This document shows, piece after piece, positions 296-62,502 of a DNA stretch of 64,000 nucleotides. The stretch is from Apostichopus japonicus (Eukaryota; Echinodermata; Holothuroidea; Aspidochirotida; Stichopodidae), in contig NC_092582.1 of the NCBI RefSeq assembly GCF_037975245.1, positions 16,084,077 through 16,148,076 on the forward strand. Direction: 5' to 3'. The notes under the pieces were generated by a model that saw only the letters and a program-made list of their open reading frames with translations, had not been told where the DNA came from and ran no database searches. Both the position numbers and the translations under genes were made by a program. Every line of letters starts with the position of its first letter. The stretch's first letter is position 1.

Positions 296-1743
296 GTGAG
301 GATTAGAGACTGTAGTTAAACCTTAATTATGCAATGAATCTTGACTGATTAAGCAATTTTCTCTTGGGTTCATCGTGTGTAGAAAATAATCACATAATCA
401 TGAAGATGTCCTTGCTTGAGGGAGAAGTTAATTCCTGGGGAAAAGATGCACCTCATCATAAATATTGTTATTTTAGGGGGTCTGTCAAAAGTGAAGCAGT
501 TGATTTTCGGCTGTTATGGTATATATGCATCTGTTTGTGTGTGTTTATAATCGAATGCGTAACAGGGCTTGAGAGTAGGTTAAATGTCTTGAAAGTTCCT
601 TCAAGGCTAAACGAAGATGAAGCCTGTTTCTCAGTGCAGATCTCAATGTTTAAAGTCATTGGTTTGATAAAGGAAAACAAAGTTGTTCTTTTTGCTCCGT
701 ATGAACGGCAGAGTGGATGACATTCAATATCACAGTGTCTTTGACAAATTTGTTAAGTATTGTAGACGTGTTATTCTAGGTCATAAAAATCTTACGATTA
801 TGCTATTGAGCGTGGTGTTGCATCTGAGGAACTGACCAAATGGACTGACTAAGCAGTATGGTCTTTTGAATTGATAAACCTCAGTTTATTAGAGAAAACA
901 TTTCCCCTTTCCTCTCCCACCCCCCTCACCGAAGAAAAAAAAGTGGTATAATAATGCAACCTCTCCTGTCAAAAGTGAAAACGAACATTTTACAACGTAT
1001 CAAAATTAATTTTATGCCTGCCATCATTTCTTAAACTCTGCCTTGGAGAAGTTTGTGTTGGTCTGTTATCCCATAATACATCACTCCTTAATCAGCTGTC
1101 ATTAATCATTTGGATTTTCAAATGTTGATGTTGGAAAAAAAAAAAACAAGAAAAGAATAAAATGTAGCATACTGCTCTGTGGAAACACCATTTCAATACC
1201 TTGGTCATAGCTTTCCTTCTGTGAAGTGTTTGCGTCCAATCGACTCACAGCTTACTCCAAGAAGAGAAGCTTTGTCAGGGCAAGTTATCTGTACAAGCAA
1301 TCTTTAACCTTGTAATAATATCTCTGTTTATTCATAACCAATATGTGTAAATAGGTGGAATAATTGCCTAGAAGTTAATGCAAATTGGATTCAAGATTTT
1401 GGCAGAAGTGTTAAATTTTATTTTCAACTTTGGATGAACGATTTGTGTAATTTTTTTTTTACAATAAAAAACACAGATATTTCCCAGTTCCCTCTTGTTA
1501 CTTACTCTCCTCTGGAGTTGCAAGATATGTATTGATAACCAGTTCGCCCAATCTATAAAAAATGTTCATACCTCTGTAAAGAAACCAGCTATAATGATCA
1601 TCTTAGGTGTCAGATATTGACACAGTTTGGTCTTAAGTTAGCTACTGGCCAGTTTGATATAAAGAAGCTACAGATTTCTTAAATAGGTATATATAAGCTG
1701 TAATTTTCTCATGCTCAAATGACTTTTGATTTTGTTTCGGCAG
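296..1743 (+). other. ABL intron
   Basis: A 1448-bp AT-rich intron with GT-AG ends joins a phase-1 donor at 295 to an acceptor at 1743. I see no second exon or recognisable repeat in it. Open frames here lack splice support and family similarity. Confidence 0.8.
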
Positions 1744-2175
1744 CTTTCGGTATCCTCCTGTGGGAGATTGCTACGTACGGTAGTTCACCTTACCCCGGTC
1801 TAGATCTCCAGCATGTCTACGGCAAACTGGAGAAAGGGTACCGGATGGAGCGTCCCGAGGGGTGTCCGTTAGACGTCTACAACCTCATGCTGAACTGCTG
1901 GGAGTGGAAGTCTAGCGATAGGCCTAGCTTCAGGGAAATCCTAGACGAGATGAACACGATGTTTGCCAACTCCAGTATAAGCGAGGAAGTGGAAAAGTCA
2001 AGAAGGGAGCCTCCGATCATACCAGTCAAGAAGCGCAGCAGCAGGAAGGACGGCGTCAGAGGTGGGATGCCGGACGAGAAACCCAGGAGTCACGACGGTG
2101 GCAGCGGCACGAGGGTCGACGAGAGAGGAAGAAACGGGCGGGAAATTCACACCAGTAACGAGATCTCCGAACAAG
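1744..2175 (+). CDS. ABL1: ABL-type tyrosine kinase, C-lobe exon
   Basis: The exon continues the kinase C-lobe: [13 protein letters not shown], then the [10 protein letters not shown] segment, the [12 protein letters not shown] motif (the conserved Arg of the C-lobe), and the ABL-specific tail SSISEEVEK. The kinase domain ends around 2010. The remaining residues are basic and hydrophilic, including [11 protein letters not shown], which resembles a nuclear-localisation signal as found after the ABL kinase domain. The donor is caag|gtgaat. Its single leftover G joins TA at 3184 to form GTA (Val), so phase is kept. The frame stays open to 2351 beyond the donor, but that part is intron with a T-run and G-run and no family similarity. 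A skipped small exon in the 1-kb intron downstream cannot be excluded. Confidence 0.94.
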
Positions 2176-3183
2176 GTGAATTAACGAGTGATCTGTGGTT
2201 TGTGATCTTTAATGGTAAAGCAACAGGAAGGAACATCCCATCCCTCTCAAATACATGTGATCCACCAGATACTCTCTCTCCACCCCACCTCATCCATTTG
2301 TACTCTTTGTTTTTTTTAGGGGGGGGGAGGTTTGGTGCACCAAGTTCTTAAAGTACTTTAACCTGCAGCTGGGGTAGGCCTCGAGGCTTCAGGCTAATTA
2401 ATGGCTAAATTGATAGTAGACTTCTATAATTGCCTTTAGAAAAAGAAAAGAGGCACTCGCTTTTCTCTGCCAGTAGACATTCAGAACATAAACACATAAT
2501 AAGTTGGTAACAAAGGTCAGTCAAAACATTGGAAGTTCTCTACCTTGTTCCCTACCTAATGTAAGCCCCATATTATTGCTTATTATCAGCAAATATTATT
2601 GGGCTGCTCTCAAAAGCCTGCACAGTAACTGATCCACAGTATTCTATAATACAGGAAAATGTCAGCGGGAGTTTCATTTTAGTCAGATTTTTTTTTTAAT
2701 TTTTATGCCCTAGCATTTTTCTTAGTAAGTGGCTTAATATTGTGAAATTCTAAATTTGTAAGTCTCTGAGAAATAATATCCTTTTTTTTCAACAAAAAAC
2801 ATAAAATCACTTTTATTTTTTGACATTAATGTAAGAAAAGATAATTTTCAGGATTTTATGCTAGTTTTGTTCATGTTTACTCTCTAGTTGTCGTAGTAAT
2901 ATCTACATCAGATATATACTGGCAACCTTCTTACATAGCCTTCCATAGTGTTAGAGTTTGCCTGAGTAAAAGAGTCGGCATAGCTCTGGGATGAGGATGG
3001 GTCACCGTTCTTTCCAAGCTTCCCTTTTCTTGTGAGTGTAGGGTGAATGGTAGTTTCTTGATTTATGTCTCTATGAAGCCATTAAGACTGGTATGACCAC
3101 CCAGTGTCCTCTCCTACAAGTGCAACATCTTTTTCACCACCTTCATCCTCTATCCTTTGTCTTTTTTATCTTTCTTTCTACAG

Positions 3184-4478
3184 TACCTCATGAACCTCCA
3201 GACTTTCCGAAGAAGAAAGGCTTCATGAAAAACTTGGGAAAGAAGAAGCGATCTATGGACCAATCAATGGATAACGTGTCGGCGACCGCCGAGGAGAATA
3301 ACACCCGCCCCCAAATGTCAACCGTCCCTGGCAAAGAAAATGGAATCGACATGCATGCAATCACACAAGATATAAACGCCTTATTTGTTGGACAAAATAA
3401 CGCAAACTCTTCACTTCTGAAGCCTGGCGCCCCGCCACGTCCAGGCTTAACCGCGAGAGCGGCGCTGAAGCCGCCCCCCATTAACGACGCGAGAAGTAAA
3501 CCGTGGCGGGCCAAAGAGGATAGCACCAGCTCATTGACAGAGGGCGTAGATGTACAAAGTTATAAGACCTCGAGGTCATCCTCGACTCCCACCATAGAGA
3601 GGAGGCCAGTTGAACCGAGTCTGCAGCAACAGCAGCAGCAGGAGGAGAAAGACACACCCAGGGCAGCGTTAAAGCCCCCTGGAAGACCAACCGATAGGCC
3701 TCCTCCTTTACCCCCACCTGTCAATGTTGCCACAGACTCAGCTAAGGAACCTTTAAGTAAAACAAAATCACTGCCTTCTGTAAAGAAACCGCTACAAACA
3801 CAGGTGCCATCCGAGGGCATCCCCGAGAGCCCAGACGATCCCACGTCCCCGACGTCCGGCATGCGTAAGAAGAAGGACATCAGTCGACCCAAAGTGCCTC
3901 CGCCCGCTCCACCCCCTCTCAGTCCCAACTCGGATTCATCGTCTGCGTCTCCGATCCCCAGTCCCCGAAGCTCACCCTCCAGGACACCTCTGAGCCTTCC
4001 GAAGCCGCAGCGCTATGCCCACAAGCCACCTATACTCAGCCCCAAGCCGACGATAAGCAGCAACAAGCCAATCTTCCCTGCCACGAATCCCAACGTCAAG
4101 AGACACGACAGAAAGGGCTCGGCCAGGAGGCGGGTCGCGGCGCAGAACGAGAAGGCGGAGATGCAGGCCTCCAAGACAACCCTACTGCAGACCGCCGACA
4201 GCCTGTTCATGCAGAGTAACGTTATTATAAAAACGGGGGACTTCACTCTCTGCCATGAGTTCTCGTCCTCGTTAGAAGACTTCTTTCAGTCGTGCGAAAA
4301 GCACTTGGAAAATATGCCGGTCAGGCAGAAATTTTCGTTACGGGACGTTTTATCCAGATCTTCGAAAGACTTGCAGACGTTGAAAGTGAAACATTCATCG
4401 GTCAATACGGTGGAATTGGATACCATCGTAAACGGCCTGCATAACAGCATCAAAGAGATCCGGTCGCTTATACAGTGA
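3184..4478 (+). CDS. ABL1: ABL-type tyrosine kinase, terminal exon (proline-rich tail and F-actin-binding domain)
   Basis: This large last exon encodes 430 residues and ends at TGA 4476-4478. Its start is set by the acceptor tttctacag at 3183. It opens with VPHEPPDFPKKKGFMKNLG, close to the start of the ABL tail, followed by a basic KKKRS cluster. A long low-complexity stretch is rich in Pro, Ser and Lys with PxxP-type SH3 ligands (RPPPLPPPV; KVPPPAPPPLSP) and a short polyglutamine tract encoded by CAG/CAA near 3627-3645. The final ~110 residues, from about ADSLFMQSNVI to the end, look like the helical F-actin-binding domain that closes ABL proteins. The tail after the kinase is about 500 residues, shorter than in vertebrate ABL. 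Domain placement in the tail is inferred from order and helical character. Confidence 0.92.
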
Positions 4479-15300: not shown

Positions 15301-15750
15301 CTAAAATCTCAACCCAACTGGTATTTCAACTCTACGGCCATTATAACCGAGTCTACGGAGAATTTCTCGCCTCGCCAATTCCTTATCGTTATCCGCTCGC
15401 TTTACCGGAAATTCTTGGTAATTTGTAAGATGTGGGTTGTCGTCTTGTTGTTGTTGTTGTTGTTGGTTTTCCAAAAAGTAGTTCCTTTGGCTTAGTTGGG
15501 TGAGAATGTTCCGTAGGGTACGAGTTATCAGTTCTCGATCGAAAGTAGATTTGGGACGAGGATTGTTATCTGTGAACATCTGTCGTTGTTTCGTTATCCT
15601 GTCTACCGAAGTATCTCCATTGAAAAATTCAATGTCCTTCCACGTCGAAAGCTCAGTATCATCAGACCCTGTAGAGTTGGCGACCACGCAACACGCCAAA
15701 CAGCTGAGGACTACTAGACTGATTATCATCGAAAACGATACTTCTGCCAT
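15301..15750 (-). CDS. Secreted precursor protein, candidate neuropeptide/peptide-hormone precursor
   Basis: A single-exon frame of 149 residues. The start is supported by an in-frame TAA 6 nt upstream of the ATG. Residues 1-25 form a classical signal peptide with hydrophobic core SMIISLVVLSCLACCVVA and likely cleavage after VVA. The remainder has no cysteine, so it would yield linear peptides. It contains a predicted helical stretch (FDRELITRTLRNILTQLSQRN), seven glutamines from CAA codons, and candidate dibasic cleavage sites: KR after EFPV, then RR sites around ILRRLGYNGRR. The C-terminus reads VEIPVGLRF and stops with no Gly, so it could not be amidated in the usual way. I do not recognise a family. 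The alternative is a non-peptide secreted protein. A TTAA-flanked transposon lies 250 bp upstream of the start. Confidence 0.6.
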   Translation of the reverse strand: MAEVSFSMIISLVVLSCLACCVVANSTGSDDTELSTWKDIEFFNGDTSVDRITKQRQMFTDNNPRPKSTFDRELITRTLRNILTQLSQRNYFLENQQQQQQQDDNPHLTNYQEFPVKRADNDKELARREILRRLGYNGRRVEIPVGLRF

Positions 15751-16001
15751 TTTTTTTTAAATTTACGGGCCGCGTAACGTCTTTGTAACCTCCTTTGGAC
15801 AGAACAAAAAAGAAAGAAAGATAAAAAAGAACGTGTTAATGTATATTATTTAATGAAAACTACTTTCTTATTAACATAAGTGTTGTAAAGTCGTGCGAGA
15901 AGGCCTTGCGTTACCTATACAGTAAAATTAATTTGAAAAAGAAAAACTTCTTTGGATCAAGTTCGGGTTATGATTGTGAGGTGATTGTGACGTGTTAGGA
16001 G

Positions 16002-17804: not shown

Positions 17805-18128
17805 CAGGCGCGTAGCCAAGGTGGGGGCGAAGGGGGCGACCACCTCCCCCCTCCCCCGGGCAATTTTTTTTGTATTTTTGTTATGATATCGCTAGCAAAA
17901 TGTCAAACTGTCAAAATAGAACTGCTTAGATGCAACTTACATGGCATGGGAAGTGTCATTTCCAGCGATCTGGGAGGCATTTTCTGCCAAAGTTTTTGGG
18001 GACGCTTCGCGCCAACTACATGGTGGCGCGACGCTTAGATAGTTTGCAGAGCCGTATCTAAATATACGGCTCTGATAGTTTGCCTACAGGCTTCGCCCTC
18101 CCTTGGCAAATTCCTCGCTGCGCGCCTG
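17805..18128 (+). mobile_element. Non-autonomous hAT-like element
   Basis: The 324-bp element has ends CAGGCGCG and CGCGCCTG in inverted orientation and is flanked by GTTGTCAA (17797-17804) and GTTGTCAC (18129-18136), a 7-of-8 match to an 8-bp target duplication, as expected for hAT. Internal sequence (TCATTTCCAGCGATCTGGGAGG; GCTTCGCGCCAAC; CGACGCTTAGATAGT) is homologous to the element at 62503-62891. No transposase is encoded. A 28-bp micro-element is nested at 18047-18074. Confidence 0.85.
18047..18074. mobile_element. 28-bp micro-element with perfect 8-bp duplication
   Basis: Eleven-nucleotide arms CAGAGCCGTAT and ATACGGCTCTG form a perfect inverted repeat around the 6-nt loop CTAAAT. The flanks are ATAGTTTG at 18039-18046 and again at 18075-18082, an exact 8-bp duplication. 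The CAG...CTG ends and duplication length fit hAT, but the element is only its termini. A second copy with the same arms and total length is at 38646-38673. Confidence 0.75.
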
Positions 18129-19716: not shown

Positions 19717-19940
19717 TGGAGTGTTAGCTCAGTGGTTAACACCGGTGCCTTTCAATCATAAGGTCCCCGGTTCGAGTCATTCCCAGATTAATGTATGTCG
19801 TCCAGTTACAGAGTTGTTGACAATTAACAATTCATAATCATGGATGTTAAATATGAATGTGAGAGACTGACTTCGGTCAGCTTGCGGCTTTGATAAGCCA
19901 ATTAGGCTTCTTCGCGAGTTCCTGCTTGCAGGAGGATCTA
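19717..19940 (+). mobile_element. tRNA-derived SINE ending in an ATAC microsatellite
   Basis: The 5' part is tRNA-like: an A-box region TTAGCTCAGTGGTTAAC at 19724-19740 and a B box GGTTCGAGTC at 19769-19778 at tRNA-like spacing. The anticodon stem is imperfect, so it is not a good functional tRNA. A tRNA-unrelated body of about 150 nt follows and runs into the (ATAC)n tract, which would be the SINE tail. Confidence 0.7.
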
Positions 19941-19941
19941 A

Positions 19942-20032
19942 TATACATACATACATACATACATACATACATACATACATACATACATACATACATACAT
20001 ACATACATACATACATACATACATACATACAT

Positions 20033-20087
<55 letters not shown>

Positions 20088-20384
20088 TACATACATACAT
20101 ACATACATACATACATACATACATACATACATACATACATACATACATACATACATACATACATACATACATACATACATACATACATACATACATACAT
20201 ACATACATACATACATACATACATACATACATACATACATACATACATACATACATACATACATACATACATACATACATACATACATACATACATACAT
20301 ACATACATACATACATACACACACACATACATACATACATACATACATACATACATACATACATACATACATACATACATACAT
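19942..20384 (+). repeat. (ATAC)n microsatellite with an (AC)n block
   Basis: About 110 tetranucleotide units with a pure AC block near 20048-20082 and a small AC interruption near 20318. The long open frames of Met-Tyr-Val-Cys or Tyr-Ile-His-Thr periodicity are translation artefacts of the 4-nt repeat. Confidence 0.97.
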
Positions 20385-20609
20385 TTAGCAAACTACTATC
20401 ACCTACCCAGTCCTCACCCCCCCCCCAACCCTCACATTGTAACATAAGTTTTTTTGATATTTATTTTGTGCCAATACGTCGGTCACTTTATGTATATGTA
20501 TATTGTGCTTTTTTTACTAATAAAGAGCTAGTATGCACTGATCAAAATCAAGTATTGTTTTCCTGAGAAAATATTTATTCATTACTCGCTTTTTCCTAAT
20601 TTTTGGTGA

Positions 20610-38645: not shown

Positions 38646-38673
38646 CAGAGCCGTATATAGACATACGGCTCTG
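38646..38673. mobile_element. 28-bp micro-element, second copy
   Basis: It has the same arms CAGAGCCGTAT and ATACGGCTCTG as 18047-18074 and the same total length, but a different 6-nt loop (ATAGAC). The flanks (GGCTATAG and GCGGCTGG) do not form a duplication. Confidence 0.65.
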
Positions 38674-38831
38674 GCGGCTGGTAGAGTTCCTTTATAGTCT
38701 AGCGGCTGGTTCTATTGAACCGCCCTCTATTTTCATATTAAATTTTTACGGCGTTGTAGGTTTTCAGGCCTGGCCTTCATATGTTCGGAATTGAGTGTGA
38801 ACTGTGACTGATCGAGAAAGAATCAGCGCCG

Positions 38832-62204: not shown

Positions 62205-62502
62205 ATTTTTGGTGAAAATTCGGGCAATATGCTGAGAATTTTTCGGGCACCTACTGGAAGAATAATAATTTGCAGTGTGTTTTTCATTTTTTGGGGGTAA
62301 AATTCGGCAATATGCTGAGAATTTTTCTGGCATCTACTGAAAGAATAATAATTTGCAATGTGTTTTTCAAATTTTTGGTGAAAATTCGGGCAATATGCTG
62401 AGAATTTTCCAGCACCTACTGAAAGAAAATAATTTGCAATGTGTTTTTCAAGTTTTTTGGTGAAAATTCGGGCAATAAGCTGAGAATTTTTTGGGCACCT
62501 AC
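62205..62502 (+). repeat. Internal tandem array, ~4 units of ~82 nt
   Basis: Units share GGTGAAAATTCGGGCAATAT, GCTGAGAATTTT, GGGCACCTACTGAAAGAA and TTTGCAATGTGTTTTTCA. The fourth unit is interrupted after GGGCACCTAC by the nested element and resumes at 62892. Confidence 0.88.

Follow-up and report, generated by a model that had tools for sequence, protein, structure and literature searches.

A 28-bp unit in the genome of Apostichopus japonicus is probably the excision scar of a long, motif-guided DNA transposon, which would cut in the manner of a P element, about 17 nt inside its ends, and whose overhangs would then be rejoined. Among the origins suggested for the unit in a first-pass annotation, we favour the footprint of a larger element, because long elements with the same ends and the same target geometry exist. 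The units probably do not represent a novel type of minimal mobile element.

The 28-bp unit in the window

In the window (the whole stretch of 64,000 nucleotides that was analysed), CAGAGCCGTATCTAAATATACGGCTCTG is found at 18047-18074 and is flanked on either side by exact copies of ATAGTTTG (18039-18046 and 18075-18082), exactly as the first-pass annotation had described a 28-bp unit with an 8-bp duplication. The second copy that it had noted, with the same arms and total length at 38646-38673, was confirmed as exact, and these were the only two places in the window at which the arm-loop-arm pattern was found with up to three mismatches (0 in 100 shuffles). The first unit is located within a MITE, which we take to be of hAT type from its ends and near-matching flanks and which has relatives in loci L035 and L040. 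The features at the two places, together with one related unit from another locus, are as follows.

17805-18128, plus strand: host MITE, 324 bp, presumed hAT-type by its ends CAGGCGCGTAGCC and GCGCGCCTG; near-matching flanks GTTGTCAA and GTTGTCAC
18022-18030, plus strand: motif GGTGGCGCG on the target side, its first base 25 nt from the edge of the unit, as with the EM motif in 40 places elsewhere
18039-18046, plus strand: left copy of the 8-bp duplication ATAGTTTG
18047-18074, no strand assigned: 28-bp unit, interpreted as an excision scar
18075-18082, plus strand: right copy of the 8-bp duplication ATAGTTTG
38646-38673, no strand assigned: exact 28-bp unit (second copy) with the loop ATAGAC, the array member farther from the motif
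38674-38681, plus strand: GCGGCTGG, the duplication copy separating the two units
38682-38701, no strand assigned: 20-bp decayed unit TAGAGTTCCTTTATAGTCTA with TAGAG ends, second end family
38702-38709, plus strand: GCGGCTGG, the duplication copy adjoining the motif
38720-38727, minus strand: motif GAGGGCGG, at most one base off the usual distance
L057:1037-1064: second-family unit, for comparison with 38682-38701

The array at the second place is decayed and reads, in order, 28-mer, GCGGCTGG, 20-bp remnant, GCGGCTGG and minus-strand motif GAGGGCGG. The 28-mer itself is flanked by GGCTATAG and GCGGCTGG and is one of the seven of 40 exact copies whose duplication has three or more mismatches or is shifted. 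The second end family, TAGAGTTCCTTTATA (pattern TAGAGTTCC...GGAACTCTA), gives rise to similar units, which stand at roughly the usual distance from the motif and occur in arrays together with those of the first; the family is known here from short units, and the one in L057, TAGACTTCCTTTATATAAAGGAACTCTA, could be read as a pair of 17-nt ends that overlap by six, one mismatch allowed.

Four other features of the window were recorded. A 389-bp hAT-like element at 62495 has CAGTGGCGGAGC ends, 12-nt arms and an exact 8-bp duplication, GCACCTAC. On the plus strand, two open frames at 1704-4478 contain a kinase domain (PF07714) and an F-actin binding domain (PF08919) and resemble what we take to be exons of an Abl-type tyrosine kinase. 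A 151-amino acid open frame on the minus strand (15301-15756), with a signal-like start, a tail ending GLRF and no Pfam match, is by its sequence possibly a peptide precursor. The open frames of a long simple repeat at 19863-20460 are runs of YIHT and MYVC.

Copy number, loops and lengths of the units

We searched the genome (671.6 Mb) with reversed patterns as the control. The arm-loop-arm pattern occurred 40 times exactly and 111 times with up to three arm mismatches, compared with 0 in either control, which contradicts the case allowed for in the first-pass annotation that there are no further copies. Flanks were fetched for all 40 exact copies and for 10 of the other 71, two copies being within the window. 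The 8-bp duplication was exact in 28 of the 40 exact copies and carried one mismatch in five; in the other seven, it had three or more mismatches or was shifted. The loops of the 40 copies were ATAGAG (23 copies), ATTTAG (eight copies), ATTTAT (two copies) and seven singletons. The earlier view that the length is selected and the loop free was thus not borne out on either point: a free loop was rejected because two types dominate, and a single fixed length was rejected because both a compilation of examined loci and a length-open search returned units of many lengths, from 17 to 34 bp.

In the length-open search, CAGAGCC-N(0-30)-GGCTCTG matched 577 places genome-wide, which include copies multiplied inside the host MITE and are not all independent, compared with 14 in the reversed control. 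The 28-bp unit is therefore one length of a series bounded by CAGAGCC and GGCTCTG. The 50 matches listed of the 577 were 18-34 bp long; five were of 28 bp, and none fell at 35-44 bp although 44 bp was allowed. Of these, 14 came from loci already examined, and the 36 new ones were taken on ends and length. The ceiling of 34 bp had been predicted ahead of this search. The compilation of examined loci held 55 duplication-flanked units, namely 40 of 28 bp (the length towards which the search was biased), 13 that measured otherwise, between 17 and 33 bp, and two read as compounds, of 40 and 41 bp. Further, 20 stretches were selected on the motif, irrespective of unit length, from the listed matches to GGCGCT-N16-CAGAGCC (every one outside the MITE up to C3:11573714, except two already examined); their 21 places comprised five long-element ends and 16 short units or decayed arrays, the latter measuring 19 to 33 bp where the end was readable. 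In the commonest 28-mer, 17-18 nt from the start of the long elements described below are followed by 11 nt of the other end, and the 26-, 30- and 33-bp forms (L065, L073 and L077) consist of the same 18 nt and 9, 13 and 15 nt, respectively.

These lengths bear on two alternatives to a scar. First, the 28-bp unit could itself be mobile, as a minimal substrate for the transposase of the long elements. The 40 exact copies of one length, the 111 with up to three mismatches, the two dominant loop types and the many exact duplications are what such a unit would produce, but 28 bp accounts for only five of the 50 matches listed of the 577 within a range of 18-34 bp, the variants look like differing joins of two ends, and two ends 28 bp apart on a stiff duplex would be hard to pair. 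We consider a mobile 28-bp unit rather improbable. Second, the units could be internal deletions, made by incomplete gap repair after excision and not by joining of cut ends. Internal deletions are usual for DNA transposons, and a 118-bp member with the same ends (L029) is in keeping with this; however, gap repair should yield a broad size range, and none of the 50 matches listed of the 577 exceeded 34 bp when 44 bp was allowed, so that we think this origin unlikely.

The 118-bp element is located inside an array at L029:1875-1992 and is intermediate between long elements and scars. Separately, a 22-bp palindrome at L038:421-458, CACTGATCTACACAGATCAGTG, has an exact 8-bp duplication, TGTAGCCC; it was set aside from the series because it is without the motif and is perhaps the scar of another element.

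Long elements with the same ends

The first-pass annotation had proposed looking for longer elements with the same termini, and such elements were found. CAGAGCCKTATATAGAGAGAGTT ends occurred 204 + 213 times genome-wide (control, 0), and 90 of the 100 ends listed of these 417 formed 45 inverted pairs, with 10 unpaired. Among the ends listed, the pairs were 2407-5719 bp apart, 21 of the 45 at 4150-4260 bp. Two versions are represented by the following.

C3:7792847-7797074: example of the 4.2-kb element
2.4-3.3 kb: long-element version with CAGAGCCTT ends

The long elements start with CAGAGCC(G/T)TATATAGAGAGAGTT. Their two end types are identical over exactly the first 31 bp, the approximate length of inverted ends in the P superfamily, and unrelated beyond; copies of the same type are 97-98% identical to one another across some 500 bp. 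The two types are presumably both ends of one 4.2-kb element. The ATTTAG loop was absent from every long-element end examined.

Insertion at a fixed distance from a motif

When both flanks of the 40 copies, including those in the MITE, were considered, [AG][GT]GGCG[CG] occurred 19 times at 24 nt from the unit edge and at most twice at any other distance within 120 nt. EM over 40 places (exact and one-mismatch copies, without nine copies in a MITE module and one duplicated locus) placed G[AG][GT]GGCGCTAT between 25 and 15 nt from the edge of the unit; the procedure chooses the better of two sides per place and is thereby inclined to find a motif. By eye, some 11 of these 40 places lacked a clear one, in certain cases owing to an intervening neighbour unit. 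The last 8 nt before the unit are the duplication, which leaves a 6-nt spacer between motif and duplication. Genome-wide, GGCGCT-N16-CAGAGCC occurred 228 + 278 times (control, 0), with many of the 100 matches listed in the MITE module. The long elements gave the same picture: in the range common to the listed motif matches and the listed element ends, exact GGCGCT stood at the fixed distance from one end in 19 of 37 paired long elements and from both ends in none of the 37, with about 0.006 ends expected. We conclude that scars and long elements have a common target rule, under which 6 nt separate the motif from the duplication. The motif G[AG][GT]GGCGCTAT resembles what we take to be the CTCF core, AGRKGGCGCTA, and on this resemblance is a candidate CTCF-like site.

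Repeated use of target sites

Nine of the 40 exact copies are found in one hAT-MITE module, with the unit at the identical place in each, so that part of the copy number is passive. Together with the many listed motif matches in the same module, this is what could be said for chance palindromes or a site amplified solely within the host MITE. The other 31 copies, however, are outside the module. Within it, the duplications differ between copies yet agree on both sides (with a one-base shift in L025), indicating that several insertions were independent, and 10 of the 19 exact-motif long elements were, by eye, at the module's site, so that the same module position carries long elements in some MITE copies and scars in others. 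Chance palindromes were rejected, as shuffles and reversed controls gave 0 for the window pattern, the 40 copies and GGCGCT-N16-CAGAGCC. We regard chance or amplification within the MITE as a negligible prospect.

Five pairs of long elements were exactly 8 bp apart, as expected if the second enters the duplication left by the first; this spacing and the 28 of 40 copies with exact duplications correspond to the 8-bp target duplication of the P superfamily. In L033, a 28-mer shares its array, and its 8-mer, with a long element and a partial unit. The motif side could be assigned by eye in 14 arrays, and the exact 28-mer adjoined the motif in 10 of them (L018, L019, L022, L024, L027, L029, L032, L035, L039 and L041), where the distal unit was shorter or altered or, in L041, the outer duplication was mismatched. 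An exact or one-mismatch 28-mer did not adjoin the motif in the other four (L033, L054, L057 and window 38646). Further, L077 consists of 100-bp satellite monomers, of which one contains a 33-bp unit together with 8 additional bp, and four have the undivided site; the undivided monomers are a natural empty site.

Search for a transposase

None of the P-domain matches was inside the 45 paired elements (C1-C6), either with PF21788 (40 genome matches, 58 of 58 candidates scored) or with PF21787 (45 genome matches, 71 of 71 candidates scored). A weak PF21788 match (28.9 bits) at C4:22126120 was 2.2 kb from an unpaired end at C4:22128589. The KDZ domain of Zisupton and its kin (PF18758; 41 genome matches, 72 of 72 candidates scored) had no match on C1-C6, and none of the 10 open frames submitted to Pfam, of 18 in the initial 2 kb of a long element (L033), had a match. 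The first-pass annotation had likened the unit to hAT elements; the ends and the 8-bp duplication do fit, but of the 35 matches to the hAT domain PF05699 listed on C1-C6, from the 150 of 633 candidates that were scored, none was inside the 45 paired elements, so that a hAT identity may still hold. As no transposase was found in the elements, we assign them to neither hAT nor P. The 4.2-kb elements may be non-autonomous or may have a transposase missed by these models. The 45 PF21787 matches were mainly on contigs C16 and C17, and also on C3, C13, C19, C21 and C22, several in frames of 487-789 amino acids; P transposases thus exist in the genome and could act in trans.

Discussion

If the units are excision scars, a long DNA transposon would insert at a fixed distance from the motif GRKGGCGCTAT and make an 8-bp duplication. 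On exit, one strand would be cut at the junction and the other, judging from the scar lengths, about 17 nt inside the element end, and overhangs of up to 17 nt from each end would be left on the donor flanks. Rejoining of these overhangs, presumably with trimming or short annealing, would leave the two duplication copies separated by at most 17 nt from each end of the element; the element sequence enclosed by them would not exceed 34 bp (17 + 17), and the 34-bp limit among the 50 matches listed of the 577, like the 17-18 nt that one end contributes to the common form, would agree with a 17-nt staggered cut. The 22-bp form may reflect annealing of TATATA, which is present within both overhangs. 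The motif-side copy of the duplication would remain a valid target, and later visits would add units on that side and build arrays, whose spacing is as seen here and whose order is seen in part. The lengths of the listed units, their composition, the target geometry, the long elements, the tandem spacing and the empty site are observations; the staggered cut, the end-joining route and the order within arrays are what we infer.

Several observations stand against scars. The 28-mer with one end trimmed to 11 nt recurs too often for random trimming alone, and the dominance of the 17 + 11 join and the ATTTAG variant are unaccounted for. The 118-bp member in L029 would have arisen differently, for instance by incomplete gap repair. 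No P-transposase domain is found in the 45 paired elements. Lastly, the 28-mer is not motif-adjacent in four of 14 arrays, and about 11 of the 40 EM places are without a clear motif.

The hAT elements (hobo, Ac and Tol2) make 8-bp duplications and have the end consensus YARNG, which the ends here fit. Excision of hAT elements leaves altered flanks and not 17 nt of each end, whereas the units described here, if scars, retain up to 17-18 nt of the ends. Like the units, MITEs are short and have inverted ends and a target duplication; unlike them, the units are without an interior and do not exceed 34 bp among the 50 matches listed of the 577. Strict target choice is shared with a kind of targeted DNA transposon that we take to be the Dada elements. 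In the excerpts of PMC3706591, targeted DNA transposons aim at multicopy small RNA genes, whereas the target here is a short motif dispersed in the genome.

The evidence supports a transposon that behaves like a P element, and we do not claim membership of the P superfamily, no P transposase having been found in the long elements. Drosophila P-element ends start with CATG. Zebrafish Pdre2 has CATAC ends and 13-bp repeats in the excerpts of PMC10983969, where a 17-nt extension is also given. The ends here differ from both in starting with CAGAG or TAGAG. In the excerpts of PMC7776569, the duplications made by P transposase are of 8 bp, its cuts fall 17 nt within repeats of 31 bp, and homologous repair or end joining closes the break at the donor site; here, likewise, the duplication is of 8 bp, 31 bp are common to the ends, and the scars keep at most 17 + 17 nt in the listed sample. 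The same excerpts describe P transposition as not site-specific, in contrast to the motif-spaced insertion seen here. No P-element scar sequences were found in the excerpts of PMC8230255, and titles and abstract openings in the open-access literature yielded no tiny palindromic insertions, CTCF-directed DNA transposons or P-element scars of this kind.

It is possible, and we suggest it tentatively, that a DNA transposon of an unrecognised transposase type docks on CTCF-core-like sites, inserts 6 nt beyond them, revisits them and leaves scars of up to 34 bp. If so, ordered scar arrays would allow past visits, and germ-line end joining, to be read off. If the units are excision scars, present on this scale alongside surviving long elements, the search for a motif at a fixed distance by a cut-and-paste transposon, possibly via a bound architectural protein, would become testable, as would germ-line repair of 17-nt overhangs, with each independent scar representing one outcome and arrays ordering the events. 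Such scars would further account for a class of very small palindromes resembling mobile units without content.
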